Shown: piece after piece, positions 2,697 through 62,553 of the stretch
How the letters are laid out: the number at the start of each line of letters is the position of its first letter
Numbering within the stretch: the first letter of the stretch is position 1
DNA from: a virus
Strand: one strand, 5' to 3'
Virus record (IMG/VR): IMGVR_UViG_3300008108_000039
Span: 62,001 to 126,000 of that record
Length of the DNA: 64,000 nucleotides
Position numbers and translations under genes: made by a program
The notes under the pieces: model-generated
Databases searched by the model: none
What the model saw: the letters and a program-made list of their open reading frames with translations, nothing else
What the model was told of the DNA's origin: nothing

Positions 2697-3587
2697 CTAT
2701 ACGTTTAATGTTTTATTCCAAGCCGCAATATGCAAACGAGTTAAACCACGGAATCTATATTTCTTTGCCATTTCAAGACAGAATTGAGTACGCTCTTCAA
2801 AATCTTTAACATCGTCTAAACCAGGCATACAAACTACATTTTTAAGTGGGATATTGAATGGTTCTACAAAATCACGGAATAGTTCCTTAACATCATCTTC
2901 TGTACTAATAACAAATTTGAATTGGTAATTTTTATGTTCCATAATACGCTTAATAGCGGCAGGTACAATACGTTGTTTTTCAGTCATACCTGAGTTTGAT
3001 AACTTAGGTGAGCAGTTGATTTGATCTAATATGTCAAATAGAGGTTGATCGATATAAACTGTACCATTTGTTTCTATTTCATTATATTGGCTGTTTCCAT
3101 TTCTTTTTCTATATTTAATACTCTCTCCATTATATAATGGAACTTGTACATGGTTAGCAAAATCAACCATTGCCCAATATTTAAAGAAATTAACAATAGC
3201 TTCTTGATGACCTTTAATTGTAGGTTCACCACCAGTCCAAATAATGTGAATTAAACCACTCTTGATATCATCATATATACCCTGTTCCTTCCATCTGTCA
3301 ATTAGATATTGAAACTCTTTATCTTCACCTCTCCAAGCCCATTGTGAGAGAGAATCACACGTCCATGTTGCTTTACCTTCAGCATGAAGATCACCAACAA
3401 TTATCTCTCCATCTTCTAATAATTTATCTTTAACTATTTGATTCATATGTTTTTTGGATAGTCCGCAGCTAAGATTGCATATTCCTAGTCTTACAAAATA
3501 TGAAGGTACTCCTGTGCTTATTCCTTCTCCTTGAACGCTATAAAAGTCGCTACTAATTAATAATTTATTTGGGTCTATCTTACTCAT
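2697..3587 (-). CDS. queE: 7-carboxy-7-deazaguanine synthase (radical SAM)
   Basis: QueE rearranges 6-carboxy-tetrahydropterin to 7-carboxy-7-deazaguanine using a radical SAM 4Fe-4S cluster. The protein shows SVQGEGISTGVPSYFVRLGIC near the N-terminus, TGGEPT in the middle and 'EIETNGT' further on, all typical of QueE. The cluster motif is unusual: C37 and C41 (CNLSC) are followed by the third cysteine only at C77 (WTCD), with 35 residues between, where standard QueE has two. At 296 residues it is longer than bacterial QueE (about 210-220), largely because of this and another insertion. It lies between folE and queC in the preQ0 cassette. Confidence 0.92.
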   Translation of the reverse strand: MSKIDPNKLLISSDFYSVQGEGISTGVPSYFVRLGICNLSCGLSKKHMNQIVKDKLLEDGEIIVGDLHAEGKATWTCDSLSQWAWRGEDKEFQYLIDRWKEQGIYDDIKSGLIHIIWTGGEPTIKGHQEAIVNFFKYWAMVDFANHVQVPLYNGESIKYRKRNGNSQYNEIETNGTVYIDQPLFDILDQINCSPKLSNSGMTEKQRIVPAAIKRIMEHKNYQFKFVISTEDDVKELFRDFVEPFNIPLKNVVCMPGLDDVKDFEERTQFCLEMAKKYRFRGLTRLHIAAWNKTLNV

Positions 3588-4795: not shown

Positions 4796-5107
4796 CTATA
4801 TTTGGTTTTGATTTAAATATTCTTCTATCTTTATTCCTTTTTCTTTCTCTTGATGATGGAAATCTCTATGACAATTGGAACAAAGAATAACACATTTATC
4901 TATTTCTTGTTTTATTCGTTTCCAACTATATCTAAAACCTTGGCTTATTTTAAAATTTTTTTCTTTAGGATCAATATGGTGAAAATCAAGTAAATGATTT
5001 TTATCTTCTCCACATTTTAAACACGACAATGAATTTTTAAAATCATTTATTTTTTCACGTTGTTGTTTTACATATGTCCTTCTATAGTTTTTTTTAACTT
5101 CTAACAT
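4796..5107 (-). CDS. HNH endonuclease (probable homing enzyme)
   Basis: The 103-residue protein carries a compact HNH nuclease with zinc-binding cysteines: CLKCGED (residues about 34-40), LLDFHHIDPKEKNF, then CVILCSNCHRDFHH. The paired CxxC motifs and the central DFHHID with CHRDFHH are the classic HNH core. It overlaps the queC 3' end by 14 bases, so it has inserted at the end of queC without breaking the gene. It may be a free-standing homing endonuclease; a role in the modification pathway is less likely. Confidence 0.85.
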   Translation of the reverse strand: MLEVKKNYRRTYVKQQREKINDFKNSLSCLKCGEDKNHLLDFHHIDPKEKNFKISQGFRYSWKRIKQEIDKCVILCSNCHRDFHHQEKEKGIKIEEYLNQNQI

Positions 5108-5978
5108 TGTTTAGTTTACTATGTTCAACTAAAACTTTTAAAACATGATCACGAGCCGTTTCCCAACTTACAGGTCCGTTTTCTAGATCTGCATATGCTA
5201 CAGGATCAGGACGTCCTAGTTTAATAAATGCTTCTATACGTTCTACAGATGCTGCTGATTTATAATCGGAATACCATGTACCTGATGTTACTATGTCTGC
5301 CCAAGCATGTTTAATGAAAATTGGTTTATAAGACGTATTGGTACGGCTATATACTTCATCAAAGTTTAAACCTAATTTTTCACAACATTTCAAACCATCT
5401 TCCAATATTTCAAATTTACTTCCTTCAAGATATGGAGTATAGAAACTAACTAATTCTGAATCCCAATTTCCGATTTTAAATGCTTCAAAATCAGCATCTC
5501 TAAATTCCTGTCTACAATCAGGGTATATGGCATGGTCACCAGCGTGAATACCTAATGCAATTTCTACTGGTTGTTTTTCACCTTTAGTTGCTAATGACAA
5601 TGCTACTGCTTGAATAATTGAACTAAATATCTTATTACGATTAGGAACAACAGTTTCTTTCATATTGTCCTGTTCGTAATGTCCTTCAGGAACATCTTGT
5701 CCACCTGTTACTAAAGCTGAATTTAGTAATTGCTGTAAACCATCTAGTTTGATAATCTGATGCTTAATTGGAGTAGTCCATTTATCTGAATGTTTAGCAA
5801 ATTCAGTTTGAATGTACTTAACTAATTCAGTAGCACGCTCTAATTCTACTTTATGTTTTTGTCCATAATCAAATGATAGAGCTGTTACTTCATAACCGTT
5901 TGCAAGTAGGTGTAATAATAATGAACTGCTATCCATACCACCTGATAGTGATAATACTGCTTTTTTATTTTGTGACAT
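5094..5978 (-). CDS. queC: preQ0 synthase (QueC-like), lacking zinc cysteines
   Basis: QueC converts 7-carboxy-7-deazaguanine plus ammonia and ATP to preQ0. The PP-loop is clear at SGGMDSS (residues 12-18), followed by ALSFDYGQKHKVELERA, then VVPNRNKIF and YPDCRQEFRDADFEAF, all QueC signatures. At 294 residues it exceeds bacterial QueC (about 220-230). The region that normally binds zinc (TxSCY...CGxCxxCxxR) reads TNTSY...SGTWYSDYKSAASVER, with no cysteine, so the structural zinc site is lost. Neighbours queE, queD and the TGT-like gene fix the pathway. The protein may act as a zinc-free QueC or have altered chemistry. Confidence 0.9.
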   Translation of the reverse strand: MSQNKKAVLSLSGGMDSSSLLLHLLANGYEVTALSFDYGQKHKVELERATELVKYIQTEFAKHSDKWTTPIKHQIIKLDGLQQLLNSALVTGGQDVPEGHYEQDNMKETVVPNRNKIFSSIIQAVALSLATKGEKQPVEIALGIHAGDHAIYPDCRQEFRDADFEAFKIGNWDSELVSFYTPYLEGSKFEILEDGLKCCEKLGLNFDEVYSRTNTSYKPIFIKHAWADIVTSGTWYSDYKSAASVERIEAFIKLGRPDPVAYADLENGPVSWETARDHVLKVLVEHSKLNNVRS

Positions 5979-6209: not shown

Positions 6210-7001
6210 TTATTTAATAAATGATTTAAACCTTTGTACATTAAAGATAATATCTTCTATTTTGTCTTCCAAATTTTTCTCAAAATAATATTCTAATTTA
6301 TGTTCCGGTTTGAAATTAATTCCACTATCATGATAACGAACACCTTCAGCTCCAACTAAAATAGGATTAGACGTATCTACTGATTTAATAAATGGCCAAT
6401 CTTTATAAGACATGAATTCTTGAGGTAATGAACATCCTAATAAATGATGATATATGTCTTTTCTTATAGTATTTTTTTCAACTAAGCGTCTAATAAGTTC
6501 CATTCTACCATACATTTGCTTTTTTAATTTAGGCATACTACTTTCATATTCTTTCTCATATGCTATACTAGAATGGTTAAAAGCAATATGAGTATATCCT
6601 AAGTCAACCAATGTTTGATAAGTTGTAATTAATTCTCCCATAGTTTTACCCTGGCATACAGCCATTAGATTTGTTTCTTTAGGTAAATATTGTTTGTAAT
6701 TAATTATCCAACTTTTAGCATTAACTAAAGTAGTAGTAGCATCATTCCAGGCATCAGGTACAATGAATATATTTGGTTTAATTAAATTAATTTTTTCTAA
6801 TAAATCTTCTATTGTGTGAGTTACTCCCTCAAATAGACCATTATCACAGATTATAAATGAACCTGGTTTTTCTCTATATTCTAACATATGAGTTTTATAT
6901 TGAGGGTATTGGTCTGTTAAATGAGGTAAAACATATTGATAATCATTCCATTCTAAACTTTCCTTTAAAAAACATAAAGATACTTCATGACTAACCTTCA
7001 T
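6210..7001 (-). CDS. dpdA: DpdA/TGT-like DNA guanine transglycosylase
   Basis: This 263-residue protein resembles the tRNA-guanine transglycosylase superfamily, whose DpdA members exchange guanine in DNA for a 7-deazaguanine base. The ordered features are CDNGLFEG (residues 52-59, like the DSGxFQ pocket), VPDAWND (81-87), VCQGKTMGEL then DLGYTHIAFNH (115-143, like the 'vQG...G.....gg' strand), HHLLGCS and a late SVDTS (207-211) that could hold the nucleophilic Asp. It is shorter than tRNA TGT (about 370-390) and no CxCxxC..H zinc site is visible. It overlaps queD by 11 bases, directly tying it to preQ0 synthesis. The family is strongly inferred; the exact DpdA subtype is not. Confidence 0.8.
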   Translation of the reverse strand: MKVSHEVSLCFLKESLEWNDYQYVLPHLTDQYPQYKTHMLEYREKPGSFIICDNGLFEGVTHTIEDLLEKINLIKPNIFIVPDAWNDATTTLVNAKSWIINYKQYLPKETNLMAVCQGKTMGELITTYQTLVDLGYTHIAFNHSSIAYEKEYESSMPKLKKQMYGRMELIRRLVEKNTIRKDIYHHLLGCSLPQEFMSYKDWPFIKSVDTSNPILVGAEGVRYHDSGINFKPEHKLEYYFEKNLEDKIEDIIFNVQRFKSFIK

Positions 7002-7455
7002 ATATAGCTGTATTTTTACTATGTTCCATAAATTCTACTCTTACAACTTTAACTCTACCACTAGTTTCTTCTTGAATAAATGTATTTAATTTATCATAAA
7101 TAAATTTAGCAAATTGTTCTGCTCCTACAGCTGGTATTATTCTTAATTGTATTATGCCTAGTTGATCCATTGTTTTAAATCCACCTAATCCTGGGTCATC
7201 TTCTGCTACAATTGTAGTATGATCAAACATATAATCCATCCATGCTTTAGGATTTTTACCATCAATAGTACCTTTAGCTCTTTTCATCCCTCCAAAATCC
7301 CAAACCCAGTTTCTTTCATCTAAATCACCTTCAAACCACACTCTAAATGATACTCCATATCCGTGGAGAAATTTACAATGAGTTCCTTCTGCTTTCCATT
7401 GGCGAAATACAGTACTATATCCATCAAACAATTTTGTTGATTGAAATTTTGGCAT
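6991..7455 (-). CDS. queD: 6-carboxytetrahydropterin synthase (QueD-like)
   Basis: QueD turns dihydroneopterin triphosphate into 6-carboxy-tetrahydropterin. The 154-residue protein has THCKFLHGYGVSF (residues 25-37) with the catalytic-type C27, WVWDFGGMK, MFDHTTIVAEDDP and PAVGAEQFAKFI, which follow the family order. The usual zinc motif HGH is HGY here, so at least one zinc ligand differs, and the earlier 'AAH' ligand is not evident. Phage QueD-like proteins of this shape exist, so this is likely a lineage feature. It overlaps the start of dpdA. Confidence 0.88.
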   Translation of the reverse strand: MPKFQSTKLFDGYSTVFRQWKAEGTHCKFLHGYGVSFRVWFEGDLDERNWVWDFGGMKRAKGTIDGKNPKAWMDYMFDHTTIVAEDDPGLGGFKTMDQLGIIQLRIIPAVGAEQFAKFIYDKLNTFIQEETSGRVKVVRVEFMEHSKNTAIYEG

Positions 7456-8317: not shown

Positions 8318-8905
8318 TCATTTATAATCCCATTTATAATTTTTATATTGTTCTCTTCTACCTTTACAGCATTGAATAATATATATTTCACTTAATTTTA
8401 AAGAACTAGATGCTTCTTTTATTGTGTTCCACTCTTTAATAACGTTTCCCTCTAAATCTTTTTGATATACTTGTTTATTATTTTTTCTATTCTGGTATGA
8501 TGGGTGGTTTTGTTTAGCTAATGATATTTTAAGATTATGTTCTGGTGTAAATTTTCTACCTTTTAACTTTTTATTTCTGTTTTTAATAGATTGTTCAGAC
8601 CATTTTATTCCTTTTGATCCACTTTCACCACCTTCACTTTTATTAACTAATATACCATTTTCTTCATATCCTACTCTACCATATAATTTAATATAGTATT
8701 GTTCTTTATTAGCAGCTTGTTCTAATGTTAGATCATTATGAACTAATTCAACAATAGGATTACCATGTTTTTTAACATAATTTATCCAATGTTTATTTCG
8801 TCCTCTGCCTTTATCCCATGCTCTTCTATCTAATCCTAATCCAACATAGAATATTTCTTTTGTTATTGGATTACGATGGAAGTAAATATAATATGTATTT
8901 ATCAT
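8318..8905 (-). CDS. GIY-YIG-type homing endonuclease
   Basis: 195 residues. The N-terminus has a variant GIY-YIG core, TYYIYFHRNP (residues 4-13) and IFYVGLGLDRRAW, followed by the helix with NKEQYYIKLYG that holds the catalytic-type Glu. The C-terminal part repeats the NUMOD-like theme QVYQKDLEGNVIKEWNTIKEAS. It is free-standing next to the reductase gene, with its own ATATTTAT element 24 bases upstream and the reductase terminator immediately beyond that. It is likely selfish and independently expressed. Confidence 0.85.
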   Translation of the reverse strand: MINTYYIYFHRNPITKEIFYVGLGLDRRAWDKGRGRNKHWINYVKKHGNPIVELVHNDLTLEQAANKEQYYIKLYGRVGYEENGILVNKSEGGESGSKGIKWSEQSIKNRNKKLKGRKFTPEHNLKISLAKQNHPSYQNRKNNKQVYQKDLEGNVIKEWNTIKEASSSLKLSEIYIIQCCKGRREQYKNYKWDYK

Positions 8906-23830: not shown

Positions 23831-25918
23831 TTAGGCTAGTTTGTATGAATTTTGCACTAATGTTGATCCTACCTTATTGCTATCCATTTTAATGGATGTA
23901 TCTTTATTATATAGTCTATCTACGGATGCTTTAACTTCTTTTATAGCATTTATCATTGGTGTTAAATCTGTTCCTAACATTCCTGCAGCTCTTGGGGAAC
24001 TTAATGGAATAATAGCTTCAGGACCGGCTTCACCAATAGTAGCATTATTTATTTCACTTGTAACAATACCACCTGATGCAAATTCTTTTTGTTTTTTATT
24101 ACCCATCAGCGTTTCTACACCTAATATAATACCACCTAATGCAGCTAAACTTAATAAACCTTTAATTGGGTTCATAAAAGTCATAATTCCAATAACTGTA
24201 AATAATATTCCTTTTAATATTGATCCAAAAGTATTTGCTGGGCCTAATATTCCGTTAATAGCATCACCTATTAATCTAAATGGAGCCCCAATTAATGTTA
24301 CAACTTGTAAAGCATCTGATAGTAAACTTAGCATTAACCCTAACGGACCTGCTACTAAGTTACCTAATAAATCTTTTAATTTATCTACGGCATTATTAAA
24401 TTTTTCTTGAGATGTTAATTGCTCCATTCTTTGAAGTGCTTCTTTACCACCAAGTGCTAATATTTCCTCTCTTGACTTATTTAAATATTGTTGTTTAAAT
24501 AATTGATCTGATAAAGCATCAGCTGATAATCCTAAAGCTTCAGCTAATGATTTTTGAGCAATAACATTCATTTCAGAGAATGTATTAAAATCAACTGCTT
24601 GTGCTGATAATTCTTCGGCAACTGCTTTTTGATCACCCATTAAAGCAGCCATTCTTGCTCTTTCTAAATTTATTTGTTTACCTGTAATTAATTCTGCTTT
24701 AAGTTCATTCTCAATTGATGATTCAAAATTAAGTAATGATTCAGCTTGAGATTTTGTTTGTTCAAGAGTAGTACCTAGAGCCTGTGTTTTAGCTATTGCT
24801 TCAGCTATAGCAGCAGGATTAGCTTTAAAATTTGCTAATAATTGTCCTGATACTTTACCTGTTTGTTCTAATATTTTTCTATTATCTAAACGTAGTTTAG
24901 TTTCTTGTTTTACTTTTTCAATAGCACCAACAGTATTAATTGTAATTTGTCTTGCATTTTTACCTGTTGCTAAAGTAATTTTAGATAAACCAATAGCTGC
25001 TTCTTCACTAATTTTAACTTTTTGAGTTAAATTAATAAATTCCTGATTAATACCTTGAGAAAGTATTCTTGTAACCCCTAAAGCATCACTTAATTTAGAT
25101 TGAGCTTCTAAAAGTTTAGTTGTTGAAATAGCAGTGTCATTTATAGCTCTACTTTGTTCAACAAATTGTTCTCTTATTAAAAATGCTTCACCTCTAGTTA
25201 TTACTAATGATCTATTAAGGGCAATAATTTGCTTTTCAGCCTCTACCATTTTAGATACTATAAAAGCTAAAATAGTAAGAGGATCTACTAGTCCTTTTAC
25301 TAAACTTTTTCCTAATGAATTTAATCCGGCTTTTAAAGTTGTAAATCTATTTGCTCCTTGTTTAGCAGCTGCTTCTTGAATATTTTCTAAAACTTTTTCA
25401 CTGTCTATTAATCCTCCTAATATAGGTATTTTATTTAGACCTTTTACTATACTGCCTAAATTACCCATTGCTTTTTTTATTTCTTCAGCTTTTTTTCTTT
25501 GCTCTTCTAATTTATTTAATCCTTCATCTATTTCTGCATTTAGATTATTTTGTAATTTTTCCTTTTCACCTAAAGTTATTAATTCATTTTGTAAAGCATT
25601 TTGTAAATCAATTTGTATTAATTTTTGTTTATTTTTTAAATTTTCTATTTGTTTATTAATATCTTTAGAAGTAAGTTGACCTTTATTTAATTTATTTTGA
25701 TTTTCCAAAATTTGTCCACTACTTTTTCCTAAGTTGTTTATAGATGATGTTAAATCAAATTTTATTTTTTTAGTTAATTGTTTAGTAGTAGCATCAGCAT
25801 CTATTAAATTCCTATTTAAATTAGCTCTAAGATTAGCTCCTAAACTATCAAAAGCATCTTTTAATGCTGCTACTGATTCTTGTGTTTCTTGTAATATTTC
25901 TTCTGGTGTTTTAGCCAT
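23831..25918 (-). CDS. Tail tape measure protein
   Basis: 695 residues with long coiled-coil stretches over residues 1-160, a hydrophobic middle (near 510-600, including FTVIGIMTFMNPIKGLLSLA) and a C-terminal GGIVTSEINNATIGEAGPEAII-type region, which is a hallmark of many tape measure proteins. It sets tail length and helps DNA ejection. It sits directly after the two tail-chaperone genes, the canonical order for tails. It is short for the family, so a tail of roughly 100 nm would follow from the general length rule; this is inference. Confidence 0.85.
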   Translation of the reverse strand: MAKTPEEILQETQESVAALKDAFDSLGANLRANLNRNLIDADATTKQLTKKIKFDLTSSINNLGKSSGQILENQNKLNKGQLTSKDINKQIENLKNKQKLIQIDLQNALQNELITLGEKEKLQNNLNAEIDEGLNKLEEQRKKAEEIKKAMGNLGSIVKGLNKIPILGGLIDSEKVLENIQEAAAKQGANRFTTLKAGLNSLGKSLVKGLVDPLTILAFIVSKMVEAEKQIIALNRSLVITRGEAFLIREQFVEQSRAINDTAISTTKLLEAQSKLSDALGVTRILSQGINQEFINLTQKVKISEEAAIGLSKITLATGKNARQITINTVGAIEKVKQETKLRLDNRKILEQTGKVSGQLLANFKANPAAIAEAIAKTQALGTTLEQTKSQAESLLNFESSIENELKAELITGKQINLERARMAALMGDQKAVAEELSAQAVDFNTFSEMNVIAQKSLAEALGLSADALSDQLFKQQYLNKSREEILALGGKEALQRMEQLTSQEKFNNAVDKLKDLLGNLVAGPLGLMLSLLSDALQVVTLIGAPFRLIGDAINGILGPANTFGSILKGILFTVIGIMTFMNPIKGLLSLAALGGIILGVETLMGNKKQKEFASGGIVTSEINNATIGEAGPEAIIPLSSPRAAGMLGTDLTPMINAIKEVKASVDRLYNKDTSIKMDSNKVGSTLVQNSYKLA

Positions 25919-25959: not shown

Positions 25960-26250
25960 CTACTTTCGTGGCGCTTTTGTTGTATATGTTGGTTGTTTTG
26001 GGTTAATAGCAGGACCTTTAGCATTAGTTTGACCTTTATTTTTCAACATATTTTGTTGTTTTTCGGTTTCTTCCTTTTGTTTTTCATAATACTCACGTAT
26101 TGTTTCAAAAGTAAAACGACGCAACCATATAGGCATATTGTAAACCGTTGCCCAATCATAACCGCCTTGACCATGAAAAACTATTTCATGGATTGTTTTA
26201 AATAATGCTAATCTATACTCCCGAGTCAGGCCAAAAAAAGTTAAGTCCAA
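25960..26250 (-). CDS. Tail assembly chaperone, distal part (gp51-like), possibly made by frameshift
   Basis: The open frame gives about 96 residues containing TIHEIVFHGQGGYDWATVYNMPIWLRRFTF and a charged, helical Glu/Gln/Lys tail. 'W..v..mPiwlRr' recalls tail-assembly chaperone and T4 gp51-type proteins. There is no ATG before the middle of the frame; the only early start is TTG at 26250, inside the end of the upstream gene. The frame is offset by +1 from that gene and they share a run of seven T. It may therefore be translated mainly as a fusion with the upstream protein, as the G-T pair of other phages is. Confidence 0.7.
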   Translation of the reverse strand: MDLTFFGLTREYRLALFKTIHEIVFHGQGGYDWATVYNMPIWLRRFTFETIREYYEKQKEETEKQQNMLKNKGQTNAKGPAINPKQPTYTTKAPRK

Positions 26251-26953
26251 TATTAAATTCTACGCCCTCCCCAACGTAGTCTGGATCACTAGGAGTAAAT
26301 TTCATTTCTATATCAGGCGATACTTCTGAATAATATTGACGAAGAGCTCTTGCGTCGGGTGCTAATAAAGCTGTGTCTACAAACTCACGAACTGATTTAG
26401 CTTCGCGGTTACCATTAATAGAGGTAATAATATATTTTAAACGAGTTGTAACTTCAGTTGTGGCGTTTGGATTTACTTTTTTTAATCCTTTAATTTCGGC
26501 TTCGATTTTTTGTTCATCACCGTGTGTTAGCAGTTTAAAAGTAACTACATTTCCTGTTTTAGGTAAAGTAAAAGTAAATTCATTACCATTTTTATACAAG
26601 GATTCGTTAAGTTCTTTTTCTTTTAGTTGTGATAAATCAATGGTTTCTTGTTTACCACTATATTCAATAACATAATCTTTACCATAACCTAAAACGCGTG
26701 CTGCAATTAAAATTGCATTTTTATCACCAACTAATAATTCATTATAATCAATTGATGTTACAATCATTGATTGTAGTAATTTATCAATTACTGTTCCGTT
26801 TTTAATATAATTGACATTAGTAAGAATATCTTCTTCCTTAGCTGTCATATATTTTAATTCTACTTCACCTTTAGAAAGTGGTGATTCTTTTGGGTACAAT
26901 AAACCTTTTGAAGGTAATGTAACTGTTTCGGTTGGAATTTTAAATTCAGACAT
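26213..26953 (-). CDS. Tail/baseplate hub assembly protein (gp26-like)
   Basis: 246 residues resembling the T4-type baseplate hub assembly family (gp26, T4_baseplate). It starts with TVTLPSKGLLYP, a common opening in this family, continues with VELKYMTAKEEDILTN and has an HGDEQKIEAEIKGL segment. It precedes the tape measure by one gene, where tail-assembly chaperones are encoded. The last ten codons overlap the downstream frame; a T7 run at codons 239-241 may allow some ribosomes to shift. Confidence 0.82.
   Translation of the reverse strand: MSEFKIPTETVTLPSKGLLYPKESPLSKGEVELKYMTAKEEDILTNVNYIKNGTVIDKLLQSMIVTSIDYNELLVGDKNAILIAARVLGYGKDYVIEYSGKQETIDLSQLKEKELNESLYKNGNEFTFTLPKTGNVVTFKLLTHGDEQKIEAEIKGLKKVNPNATTEVTTRLKYIITSINGNREAKSVREFVDTALLAPDARALRQYYSEVSPDIEMKFTPSDPDYVGEGVEFNIGLNFFWPDSGV
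26233..26239 (-). promoter_or_regulatory. Possible programmed frameshift site (T7 run)
   Basis: The coding strand reads AAC TTT TTT TGG in the upstream frame and ACT TTT TTT GGC in the downstream frame. Seven consecutive T would allow a +1 or -2 slip that joins the two chaperone frames into one long product. Confidence 0.5.
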
Positions 26954-26991: not shown

Positions 26992-27747
26992 CTATTTTTT
27001 AACCAAATCTAATAATATTTGCTTAACATATTTAATATTATTATTAATATCATCTTCCCAAAAACGTAGCAATGTATAGCCATTATCTAATGCCCATTGT
27101 GATTTAATAGAGTCTTTAATTAAATTACGTTTTTGTGTTTCATATTTAGGAATATTATGTTTACTATTCGGGTTACAATGCCAAAAATCACCATCTACCT
27201 CAATAATAATATTATGTTTTGGTAAATAAAAATCATAAAATGCTTTAATATCTTTAGCGTAAAAGAATTGCTGATATTCTATATCTAATAAATCTAATAT
27301 ATTAGCAAATGTTTTTTCTAATTTAGATGTGTGATTATGATCAGTTATAAGTACACGTTGAATTGCTGTTTCGCTCATTTTATCTTTAGTAGCCTGGCTG
27401 TGTACTCTACCAACTCCAAATCCATCAGCTTTGGGACGAGATATACCTTTACCACCTTTACTAATTTTTTGTTTGATCTCTTCAGATCGATTCTGTGATA
27501 CTTTGTCTAATATGTGATTATATTCACCTGAAGCGAACTTGGCTTTACGGGTACTTATAATAGCATTTACACGTTTTTCAGATTTGGGGTCACCAAAGTG
27601 ACCAGCTACACGGGATTGATGTCCACTTATCCATTTACAATAATCTTTTAATTTTGCTTCATAACGTGTTTGTTGACCACACCCACATTGGCATGTTGGG
27701 TGGATACCATTGTATTTGTCTTGTATTATTTTATCCTTTTTAAGCAT
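26992..27747 (-). CDS. Homing endonuclease with Vsr-like (EDxHD) nuclease domain
   Basis: 251 residues. The N-terminus has a small Cys site (CQCGCGQQT), then a basic NUMOD-like middle (KQKISKGGKG, SQATKDKMSE). The C-terminus contains FYDFYLPKHNIIIEVDGDFWH then GYTLLRFWEDDI, the core of very-short-patch-repair-like nucleases used by phage EDxHD homing enzymes. It is inserted between the tail tube gene and the chaperone genes, with its own late-type element in the preceding hairpin loop. It probably spreads by cutting tail-gene intergenic sites. Confidence 0.82.
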   Translation of the reverse strand: MLKKDKIIQDKYNGIHPTCQCGCGQQTRYEAKLKDYCKWISGHQSRVAGHFGDPKSEKRVNAIISTRKAKFASGEYNHILDKVSQNRSEEIKQKISKGGKGISRPKADGFGVGRVHSQATKDKMSETAIQRVLITDHNHTSKLEKTFANILDLLDIEYQQFFYAKDIKAFYDFYLPKHNIIIEVDGDFWHCNPNSKHNIPKYETQKRNLIKDSIKSQWALDNGYTLLRFWEDDINNNIKYVKQILLDLVKK

Positions 27748-27836: not shown

Positions 27837-28322
27837 TCAAAAATTTAATACACAATAATCCATAGCGATTGTTACTGATAAATTAATTGCGGCATCACTT
27901 GCCCAATCATAATCACCAAAAGTAGCTGTTTTTACATAAGCTCCTTTAACAATCCACTCACCTACTACATCACCTACAGGACCTAAAATATCTAATGTTA
28001 AATCTTTTTTATAAAAATCAGAATAACCATCACGACCTGTTATTGATTCGTGTGCTAAACGAGCCCACTCCATTACAGCTTGAGCTCCAGATGGAGTTAC
28101 AGGATCATATAATTCTAAAGTCATATCATTCCATCTTACTTTACCTTTTACTTTACGGTAAACATTGATGTGGTCTAAAATAATTTCACCAGCTTCAAAT
28201 CCAGGAGCAGATGCTTTTTTAATCAAATATGCAGGAATACCATCTACATACATGATAAAGCGGTTTTGAACTTTTGGTTCAAAAGCGGTAAACATTATTT
28301 CATTTGCGTCTAATACAGGCAT
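27837..28322 (-). CDS. Tail tube protein (gp19-like)
   Basis: 161 residues, almost the same length as T4 gp19 (163). Typical features are FEPKVQNRFIMYVDGIPAYLIK near the N-terminus, MTLELYDPVTPSGAQAVMEW in the middle and WVKGAYVKTATFGDYDWA-type strands near the end. It polymerises as the inner tube of the contractile tail. The sheath gene lies immediately upstream and a terminator immediately downstream, the usual high-expression pair. Confidence 0.92.
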   Translation of the reverse strand: MPVLDANEIMFTAFEPKVQNRFIMYVDGIPAYLIKKASAPGFEAGEIILDHINVYRKVKGKVRWNDMTLELYDPVTPSGAQAVMEWARLAHESITGRDGYSDFYKKDLTLDILGPVGDVVGEWIVKGAYVKTATFGDYDWASDAAINLSVTIAMDYCVLNF

Positions 28323-28371: not shown

Positions 28372-30132
28372 TTATGCAGGGAATGTAGCGCCAGTTGGTT
28401 GAATATTAAAGTTTAATATAATGAATTCAGCAGTCTTAGTTGGTTGAATATAAATCTGACCTACTAACTGATTTCTATCAATTACATCAGGAGTGTTATT
28501 CGTATCGTCCATTATTACTCTATATGCAAATAAACCTTGACGTTGAGCTACTGATTCTAAATATGGATTAACTTGTGCTAAGAATCTATTACGTGTAACA
28601 TTTGTATTTTGTTCAAATACTAAGTTACGAGATACTTGACCAATAAATCCTTTTAAGGCAATTAACAAACGACGAACATTTACACGATCTAAAGCTGTTG
28701 CTCTACGTTGTAATGTTTTTTGTCCATATACTACTACTCCTTCACTTGGGAATGTAGCTAATGGGTTAACGTTTGCATTGTATAATACATCACGATCAGC
28801 TTGAGATAATCTTCTTTCAGCTCTTAATACATTTGGTACACCACCACGATTAATACCGGCAGGTGCAAACCAAGGTTGAGCTACTTGATCATTAAATGCT
28901 AACACACCACCCATTACTGTTGATGGAGGACACCATACTGCCTTACCTAAATTAGAACTAAATAATTGAACCCAAGGCCAATAAGTTCCAGCATAATTAC
29001 TAGATTGACCAGCTGCAGATGTTGCAGCACCAATTACTGTGCTACCGTATCCTTTAGTATCAATAATAGCAAAAGCATCACCTCTACTTTCTACAGTTGA
29101 AATCATAGTTGAAGCCGCTGCATTATCTAAGGTAACACCAGGAGCTAATAATACGTTAAATGAATATTCATCACTATTTAATAATAAATTAAAGGCATTT
29201 TGATAATCAGTAGCTGAAAATCCTTGTATATTTGTTGCTGAAATGTTTTCATTCATTAATTGAACTGCATTTGTAGCCGCAACACCACCTGTAAAAGCTC
29301 CACCAATTGAACCACTACCTAAAGCAGGTAAACCACCAGCATATGTAGTACCAGTTCCGTTAGGGATAACAGAACCAGATTTATAAAATCCGTTATTATC
29401 TAAAGAATCTACTTGAGGGTTTACTACTGATCTAACACGAACATATTGAGAAGCGTTAGCATATGAACCTGTAAGTTCCACAAAAGGAAGACCAGTAGTT
29501 GAATCTACTCTATATACAGGTTTAATATCACCAATTACACGAGAAATAAAATTAGGTAAATTTGGATCTAATGATAAATTAGGCCAAGTTTCTAAATAAT
29601 TAGATTGAGCCGTATTGTCGTTACCAGCACGGATAGCTAAAGTAAATGTACCACTACCTGTGTTAACTTGTGTTACTTCCCAACGCACATTAAGTGTACT
29701 ACCACTTACTAAAGCACCAGCAACTATAGAGCCACTATTGTTCATTACATCACCCCAAGCAAGGGTTTCAAGAACAAATGAAGCTTCATTTGCTACTGCA
29801 GGTCCAGAAGCTGTAACTGAAGCTGAAGCATATACAGATACATTTGCACTACCACTAATAACACGAGTTACTAATAATGTTTGACCACCGTTACTAAAAA
29901 ATTCACGAGCAGCTTGTGAAGTTAGATATTCATAGTAATAACTAGCACTTCTAAAGGTTTCACCAAATTGAGCTGCATATTCAGAGTATGAAGTTATAAC
30001 AGTAGGTACTAATGGTTGACCTTTTACTGTAGGACCAACTAATGCAGTTGCAGTACCTTGTATACCTCTTTGTACTAAAGAAGCATCACTTTCATTCTGA
30101 AAAACGCCGGGACTTATAATTTTTTCTGACAT
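28372..30132 (-). CDS. Tail sheath protein (gp18-like)
   Basis: 586 residues (T4 gp18 has 659). It starts MSEKIISPGVFQNESDASLV and reads through TATALVGPTVKGQPLVPTV, a conserved sheath N-terminus; the C-terminal domain includes ERRLSQADRDVLYNANVNP and LLIALKGFIGQVSRNLVFEQN, both typical sheath core segments. It forms the contractile outer tail. It is separated from tube by a short spacer with a late-type element. Confidence 0.95.
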   Translation of the reverse strand: MSEKIISPGVFQNESDASLVQRGIQGTATALVGPTVKGQPLVPTVITSYSEYAAQFGETFRSASYYYEYLTSQAAREFFSNGGQTLLVTRVISGSANVSVYASASVTASGPAVANEASFVLETLAWGDVMNNSGSIVAGALVSGSTLNVRWEVTQVNTGSGTFTLAIRAGNDNTAQSNYLETWPNLSLDPNLPNFISRVIGDIKPVYRVDSTTGLPFVELTGSYANASQYVRVRSVVNPQVDSLDNNGFYKSGSVIPNGTGTTYAGGLPALGSGSIGGAFTGGVAATNAVQLMNENISATNIQGFSATDYQNAFNLLLNSDEYSFNVLLAPGVTLDNAAASTMISTVESRGDAFAIIDTKGYGSTVIGAATSAAGQSSNYAGTYWPWVQLFSSNLGKAVWCPPSTVMGGVLAFNDQVAQPWFAPAGINRGGVPNVLRAERRLSQADRDVLYNANVNPLATFPSEGVVVYGQKTLQRRATALDRVNVRRLLIALKGFIGQVSRNLVFEQNTNVTRNRFLAQVNPYLESVAQRQGLFAYRVIMDDTNNTPDVIDRNQLVGQIYIQPTKTAEFIILNFNIQPTGATFPA

Positions 30133-61959: not shown

Positions 61960-62553
61960 TTAATCTCCAGTATATTTTGCTCCACTTGGAACATCATATC
62001 CACCACCAGGACCAAAACGACTTTGCCATGCTTGTTTATCAATTTCTTTTTCTTTTGGAGTTCTTTTATCTGCAGGAAATTCTTTTGTAGGTTCTAATTT
62101 AATTGTATTTCCATCAATTAATATATCTGCAATTGGATCTTTTAAATCTAAATAATCAATTGTAGTATTTTCGTCTTTTAAAGTAATAGTACCAGACATT
62201 GTATTAATTTTCTGAATAGGTTTACCTTGTACAGTTACTGTTTGTCCTGCTTTTAAAGCAGCATCTACTTTTCTCATTACTTGAGTATCATTTATTTCGT
62301 TTATAACTGATTTAGTTGAAATACCAGCTAATTGTTGCATTCTTTTAATTTCATCCATTGTTTGTTGATTTTTAATAATACTGTCGTATTGATTCATTGT
62401 TAATGTTTTTCCAGTTTTACTTAACTCTAAAATATTTTCAGCTACTGTATGTAAATCCATATCAGTTTTTGCATCTTCACGAGCATATTCTAGTAAACGA
62501 ATAAATAAAGGTACGTCTACTGTAATTTTATCTGTAGGGTTAAATTGTATCAT
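61960..62553 (-). CDS. Late protein with LAGI motif, function unknown
   Basis: 197 residues. The N-terminal half has VDVPLFIRLLEYAREDAKTD and MDLHTVAENILELSK, a compact helical domain found in several marine phage proteins, from memory. Then EIKRMQQLAGISTKSVINEI, one of four copies of the motif in this window, and a beta-rich, Pro/Lys-rich tail. It overlaps the 161-residue gene by four bases. A late-type element lies 12 bases upstream. Confidence 0.66.
   Translation of the reverse strand: MIQFNPTDKITVDVPLFIRLLEYAREDAKTDMDLHTVAENILELSKTGKTLTMNQYDSIIKNQQTMDEIKRMQQLAGISTKSVINEINDTQVMRKVDAALKAGQTVTVQGKPIQKINTMSGTITLKDENTTIDYLDLKDPIADILIDGNTIKLEPTKEFPADKRTPKEKEIDKQAWQSRFGPGGGYDVPSGAKYTGD

Follow-up and report, generated by a model that had tools for sequence, protein, structure and literature searches.

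A probable +1 ribosomal frameshift on a run of seven T yields a second, longer form of a tail-assembly chaperone in a virus and its relatives

How could an open reading frame (ORF) be translated that overlaps the end of a tail gene and has no usable start codon of its own? The question is raised by a locus on the minus strand of a 64,000-nt stretch of viral DNA (positions 62,001 to 126,000 of the 167,479-base IMG/VR record IMGVR_UViG_3300008108_000039), hereafter the window, in which a gene similar to T4 gp26 (ORF1) is overlapped at its 3′ end by a second frame (ORF2), the two sharing a run of seven T (the T7 run). We consider it very probable that a forward one-base slip of the ribosome on this run gives this phage and about 200 of its relatives a second, longer tail-assembly chaperone. 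Precisely, the comparison of sequences points, with a probability that we put at roughly 0.8, to one tail-assembly chaperone in two forms, ORF1 alone and an ORF1-ORF2 fusion reached by a +1 slip. The features concerned are the following, in window positions.

26213 to 26953, minus strand: ORF1, putative short form of the tail-assembly chaperone, T4 gp26-like, 246 amino acids (phrog_150, PF12322, AlphaFold/BFVD matches)
25960 to 26259, minus strand: ORF2, putative C-terminal 'T-like' extension, without usable start codon (frame, pN/pS, phrog_634, profile matches)
26229 to 26242, minus strand: predicted slip site AACTTTTTTTGGCC, codons AAC UUU UUU_UGG CC (site conservation)
25963 to 26953, minus strand: predicted +1 fusion product, 330 amino acids, ...IGLNFF/GLTREYR... 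(from translation)
26265 to 26272, minus strand: Shine-Dalgarno (SD)-like GGGGAGGG, a candidate stimulatory element that precedes the T run by about 26 nt (synonymous resampling)

The 3′ end of ORF1 reads GGA CTT AAC TTT TTT TGG CCT GAC TCG GGA GTA TAG, the last codon being its stop, and across the overlap the ORF2 frame, which is the +1 frame with respect to ORF1, reads TTG GAC TTA ACT TTT TTT GGC CTG ACT. ORF2 is open from 26259 to 25963, bounded on its 5′ side by a TAG at 26260-26262 and closed by a stop at 25960-25962. The overlap motif AACTTTTTTTGGCC, in which the T7 run occupies 26233-26239, occurs once in the whole virus record, and TTTTTTTGG occurs three times, both strands summed. Entry into ORF2 from ORF1 requires a +1 or a -2 slip, as the initial annotation had read from the run; its coordinates, its frame offset and its statement that ORF2 lacks an early ATG were also correct, the first ATG lying 32 codons beyond the slip site. 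The -1 slip that is canonical for most tail chaperones does not lead into ORF2, which is here in the +1 frame: it gives TTG GCC TGA, a stop after two codons, and since this TGA is kept in 76 of 77 nonredundant relatives a -1 slip would yield nothing useful.

Relatives were collected by scanning IMG/VR with ORF1, which gave 80 sequences of 57-75% identity, and the set was widened by further scans and by annotated phages. We counted as separate loci only distinct 120-nt neighbourhoods, which gave 174 loci for the window-like and the Mel-JY01-like (Microcystis-phage-like) groups and 201 with the SP-15-like set; one relative cut by a contig end (L169) stands outside the offset count. Residue conservation and start codons were counted in the 77 nonredundant relatives, some of the stop and start counts being over 82 relatives. 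All the 80 IMG/VR relatives have ORF2 in the +1 frame and retain the T run, as TTTTTTT or TTTCTTT. The initial annotation had proposed to look for the T run and the frame offset in related phages, and in the two main groups both were found throughout: the offset is +1 in 174/174 distinct loci, with the slip site retained in all, and chance is therefore excluded. With the SP-15-like set added the offset is +1 in 198/201 loci, this SP-15/GXN1-like set holding 24 loci in +1 and 3 in -1 (L301 is +1 by reading of the sequence). The slip sites of the 174 loci are 160 TTTTTTTGG, 5 TTTCTTTGG, 3 TTTCTTTACC, 3 CTTTTTTGG, 2 TTTTTTTACCC and 1 TTTTTTTATCC, the 14 loci without TTTTTTTGG being TTTCTTT, CTTTTTT or TTTTTTTA variants. 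The cultured relative Flavobacterium phage immuto (L082) has TTTCTTTGG, and its record annotates just a 111-nt piece of ORF2. In L216, L219, L221 and L225 the T run is lost and CCC AGT is kept, where a +1 slip may take place on a proline codon, as it does in Listeria phage PSA.

Purifying selection acts on ORF2: beyond the ORF1 stop, the ratio of nonsynonymous to synonymous polymorphism (pN/pS) is 0.22 in its own frame, versus 1.18 and 1.85 when the other frames are read. Starting with the T run, the 77 relatives share the ORF2-frame residues F (1.00), F (1.00), G (0.97), L (0.99) and T (0.95); upstream of the run the residues are weakly conserved and often stops (at most 23/77 at one codon position; 5 loci two codons before the run). 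That conservation sets in exactly at the run argues against ORF2 being a separate protein, whether started on its own (at the TTG at 26250, or at a non-AUG codon with the help of the SD-like element) or made by ribosomes that reinitiate past the ORF1 stop. Such a start does exist in the window, where this TTG is the sole standard start of ORF2 5′ of the slip site and has the SD-like GGGGAGGG 14 nt before it; some ATG, GTG or TTG lies upstream of the site in 45/82 relatives, and in some phages of the -1 class described below an ATG overlaps the ORF1 stop. However, among the 20 loci listed the TTG is the sole start only in the window and its nearest relative, L002, an ORF2-frame stop stands 1-3 codons before the T run in 23/82 loci, and in 31/77 loci no ATG, GTG or TTG follows the upstream stop before codon 27 at the earliest. 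In such start-less loci the first start is most often codon 32, within the conserved VYNMP motif. The initial annotation had named independent TTG initiation of ORF2 as the alternative; we rejected it, because the TTG lacks conservation and many relatives are without a start codon altogether, and we regard a separate ORF2 protein as very improbable in any form. A programmed frameshift joining two tail chaperone frames, as first proposed there, is instead strongly supported by the comparative evidence.

As regards codon choice, TTT makes up 84% of Phe codons, and UUU UUU by itself is only moderately unusual. CCT is nearly fixed at the next Pro codon (34% of Pro codons elsewhere), as is GAC at the next Asp codon (22% elsewhere), because the region codes in both frames.

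In the mechanism that we propose, most ribosomes would read ORF1 to its stop and give the short form of 246 amino acids. A minority would slip one base forward when the P site holds UUU and the A site holds UGG, a codon read by a single tRNA: peptidyl-tRNA-Phe would re-pair from UUU to UUU at UUU_UGG, GGC would enter the A site and ORF2 would be added. Reading would proceed to 26234, skip the T at 26233 and resume at the GGC at 26232, giving the long form of 330 amino acids with the junction ...NFF/GLT.... The +1 junction peptide would carry two Phe (FTPSDPDYVGEGVEFNIGLNFFGLTR type), and in immuto, where the site reads TTT CTT TGG, a +1 slip predicts FFPEDGPDGGVDIPIGVSFLGLTPEYR and unslipped reading predicts ...VSFLWPDAGV. 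By analogy with lambda, the short form may coat the tape measure and the extra domain of the long form may recruit the tail tube.

The direction of the slip is a separate matter, since TTTTTTTGG is compatible with both +1 and -2. The two products could also come from a tRNA-Phe moving two bases back in the T run, which would give ...NFFF/GLT..., with one extra Phe (in immuto ...VSFLFGLTPEYR, again with one extra Phe); a -2 slip has been reported for phage Mu. The T7 sites fit this reading too, seven T permitting UUU to re-pair with UUU, and in the C variants CUU to UUC also pairs; one relative, LIS04 (TTT TTT AGT, UUU_A), even fits -2 better than +1. Known -2 cases are rare, however, and other variants discriminate. 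Precisely, TTTCTTTGG places CUU_U in the P site, which is the prfB slip; the TTC TTT C of the distant kin L199, L205, L207, L213, L222, L223 and GXN1 would move UUU to UUC at +1, and at -2 would require UUU to UCU, with a mismatch at the middle base; the CCC AGT of L216, L219, L221 and L225 permits CCC to CCA at +1 and makes a -2 slip impossible. The site variants (CUU_U, TTCTTTC, CCC_A) therefore favour +1 over -2, and we infer that the slip is likely a forward one, the -2 slip being unlikely. The same variants bear on transcriptional slippage, in which RNA polymerase would slip on the T run and the mRNA would carry the corrected frame. A 7-T homopolymer in an AT-rich genome would suit it, and the loss of one U or the gain of two gives the frame; yet relatives with TTTCTTT, TTCTTTC or CCC_A break the homopolymer and keep the offset, and for this reason we rejected polymerase slippage as scarcely credible.

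The +1 slip proposed here resembles that of prfB (release factor 2, RF2), in which a P-site CUU_U or UUU_U moves to UUU before a U-starting codon and the first slip base likewise alternates between C and T; in 21 genomes prfB has a poly-T slip, TTTTTGA (PMC12421855). It differs in that prfB has UGA in the A site and an SD-like sequence 3 nt upstream, versus UGG (Trp) and about 26 nt here, and in that there is no autoregulation here. A +1 slip in a phage structural module (tail/capsid) is found in Listeria phage PSA and, very likely, in haloarchaeal HSTV-2 (PMC5009743); in PSA it takes place on a proline codon before a stop or a pseudoknot (PMC5009743), in contrast to the Phe codons before UGG considered here.

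The SD-like 5-mer, which most window-clade loci carry about 28-33 nt ahead of the run, is conserved past coding needs, at about 3-fold over the synonymous expectation in two groups. In fact, against an expectation obtained by synonymous codon resampling, it is present in 62/77 window-clade loci (21.0 ± 3.7 expected) and in 47/63 Mel-JY01-like loci (17.8 ± 3.4 expected; positions split between -33 and -39), and in 3/19 SP-15-like loci (2.5 expected). Control stretches of ORF1 were mostly at expectation, with two exceptions (23 versus 12.7 and 13 versus 3.6). There is no start codon at a normal distance from the element. In the -1 class, a GAGG-like sequence stands, in raw positions, about 10 nt before the run, which is a dnaX-like distance.

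As for what the two frames encode, ORF1 matches phrog_150 'baseplate hub' (E=4.7e-10) and PF12322, the T4 gp26 family (E=4.6e-5; 23.6 bits, slightly under the 24.5 cut-off). In BFVD its AlphaFold model, with a predicted local distance difference test score (pLDDT) of 90, finds hub assembly proteins of T4-like phages and the hub protein of SP-15, the lowest E being 1e-17. PDB fold searches with ORF1 and with ORF2 gave no significant match, and a search of solved structures by sequence found nothing. For ORF2, 6/50 members match phrog_634, gp51 'hub assembly catalyst' (best E 0.001), and in profile comparisons to the gp51 domains of the -1 class the Mel-JY01-like ORF2 reached a probability of 93%, the SP-15-like ORF2 92% and the T4 gp51 tail 93%. 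The ORF2 profile of the window clade reached 100% to the Mel-JY01-like profile, 28% directly to the -1 class and 0.24% directly to T4, which is negative; reversed-profile controls were below 0.4%. On these comparisons ORF2 is homologous, via intermediate profiles, to the C-terminal gp51 extension of T4-like phages.

Beside the T7 sites and LIS04, several points weigh against a two-form chaperone made by a +1 slip. One relative, LR756508, has no obvious slip site. The SD-like element stands at an unusual distance, about 26 nt, beyond the reach of both known modes. The search for a conserved RNA structure downstream was negative: alifold gave 0.0 on the ungapped site region, and the mean folding z was at best -0.8, versus about -0.25 in controls. 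Such a structure was rejected as the stimulator. Finally, the chaperone role of ORF1 and ORF2 is argued from homology and position, and HK97 2ob9, a chaperone of solved structure, matches the fold of ORF1 at a non-significant level (E=2.4, rank 18, TMt 0.47), even if it has the highest TM among the 50 targets listed in the PDB fold search.

The position is given by the following neighbours.

28372 to 30132, minus strand: sheath
27837 to 28322, minus strand: tail tube protein (gp19-like), upstream of ORF1 (phrog_4542, E=5.6e-23)
23831 to 25918, minus strand: putative tape measure protein, directly downstream of ORF2 (position, length, weak phrog_23574 match, E=0.042)

The order on the strand is sheath, tube, homing endonuclease, ORF1, ORF2 and the long putative tape measure protein, so that the pair sits between tail tube and tape measure in the window as in the annotated relative immuto, the record of which annotates a tape measure at the matching position. 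The initial annotation had compared the pair to lambda G/GT, and the comparison fits this order as well as the homology to the T4-like gp26/gp51 pair. As in lambda, overlapping ORFs lie between tube and tape measure and give a short and a frameshifted long product, the latter predicted here; lambda slips by -1, in contrast to +1 on UUU_U, and the likeness is one of layout. The frameshift in tail genes is conserved (Xu et al. 2004, reviewed in PMC5009743).

The homing-endonuclease-like gene (DUF559/Vsr-like, NUMOD3, phrog_559; 26992-27747, minus strand) is inserted between the tube and the chaperone genes; in immuto and Mel-JY01 no homing endonuclease is annotated there. By eye, the window also holds, on the minus strand, two putative GIY-YIG-type homing endonuclease genes (554-1342 and 8318-8905) and a 7-deazaguanine gene set, putatively FolE-, QueE-, QueC- and QueD-like (1388-2023, 2697-3587, 5094-5978 and 6991-7455), which suggests modified DNA.

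Vladimirov, Gautam & Davidson (2022, Virology 566:9) reportedly dealt with the T4-like tail-assembly chaperones gp26/gp51. In two later papers, Vladimirov et al. 2022 are credited with the finding that T4-like phages can derive the chaperone pair from one short gene and one long, fused gene (PMC10885494, PMC12846349) and with poly-T -1 signals in these phages (PMC12846349). The T4 gp26/gp51 solution is thus already published, and the T4 part carries no novelty. In T4, treated as an exception to tail-gene frameshifting in the review literature (PMC5009743), gp26 and gp51 are paralogs that both match PF12322 over full length (8.8e-64 and 3.9e-52), and gp51 is longer by a C-terminal segment that matches phrog_634, the family to which the tiny 'gp51' of Pelagibacter phage HTVC008M belongs. 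The locus described here is similar in that ORF1 is gp26-like and ORF2 homologous to the gp51 extension, as short and long form of one chaperone; it differs from T4, where the two forms come from paralogous genes on opposite strands, gp26 giving the short one and gp51, in frame, the long one, and from cyanophages, Aeh1, Ackermannviridae and others, which use, or appear to use, -1.

In this -1 class, HTVC008M, P-SSM2, S-RIM2, phiM7, Desulfovibrio phage 7757, Aeh1, nt-1 and RHph_I34 have a small -1-frame ORF that overlaps gp26 on T TTT TTN; the small ORF of Ackermannviridae (Marshall, FKP10) has no start codon and overlaps gp26 at ATT TTC ATT TAA. An ATG stands at or near the gp26 stop in K362, YC, Cygsa01, phiM7, RHph_I34 and P-SSM2, where reinitiation is possible. 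Aeh1, reported as lacking gp51, carries it as an overlapping -1 ORF; cyanophage 'gp51' had been described as having about 20% of the normal length, and Aeh1 as devoid of it, with no explanation given (PMC3037559). The public records of Aeh1, Marshall, FKP10, K362 and immuto (L112, L114, L111, L109 and L082, respectively) either omit the second chaperone ORF or annotate it from an internal start only.

By sequence comparison, the extension of the gp26 family is one domain family across the -1 phages, the +1 phages and T4 gp51. A tree of 67 gp26-like proteins, with long deep branches and some forks that lack support, has a -1 side, where the T4 gp26 and gp51 pair stands beside Aeh1 and nt-1, and a +1 side, with the window, RM378 and SP-15; -1 recurs on the +1 side in RAS14/Atu_ph07 and LR756511, and the direction of the slip therefore probably switched more than once. 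The gp26 family thus appears to make its long and short chaperone pair in three ways, by a -1 slip, by a +1 slip and by the gene duplication of T4. It is possible, although we hold it only tentatively, that a T4-related lineage (Immutovirus-like, Mel-JY01-like, RM378, SP-15/GXN1-like) runs +1 and its sister lineage -1, with back-switches in some jumbo phages, direction turnover on one conserved Phe-Phe site, and a new SD-like stimulator about 26 nt upstream in the main +1 groups.

The frameshift trick itself is known in other phages; its forward direction and its extreme conservation in this sizeable and mostly unannotated group appear to be new. No +1 case in the gp26 family was found in the open-access papers searched, and one may exist elsewhere. 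If the +1 slip is true, hundreds of un- or half-annotated genes of aquatic phages would gain their correct form, and the gp26 family would be a natural experiment on the evolution of slip direction at one conserved site, which would also test whether a far-upstream SD-like element can stimulate a slip.
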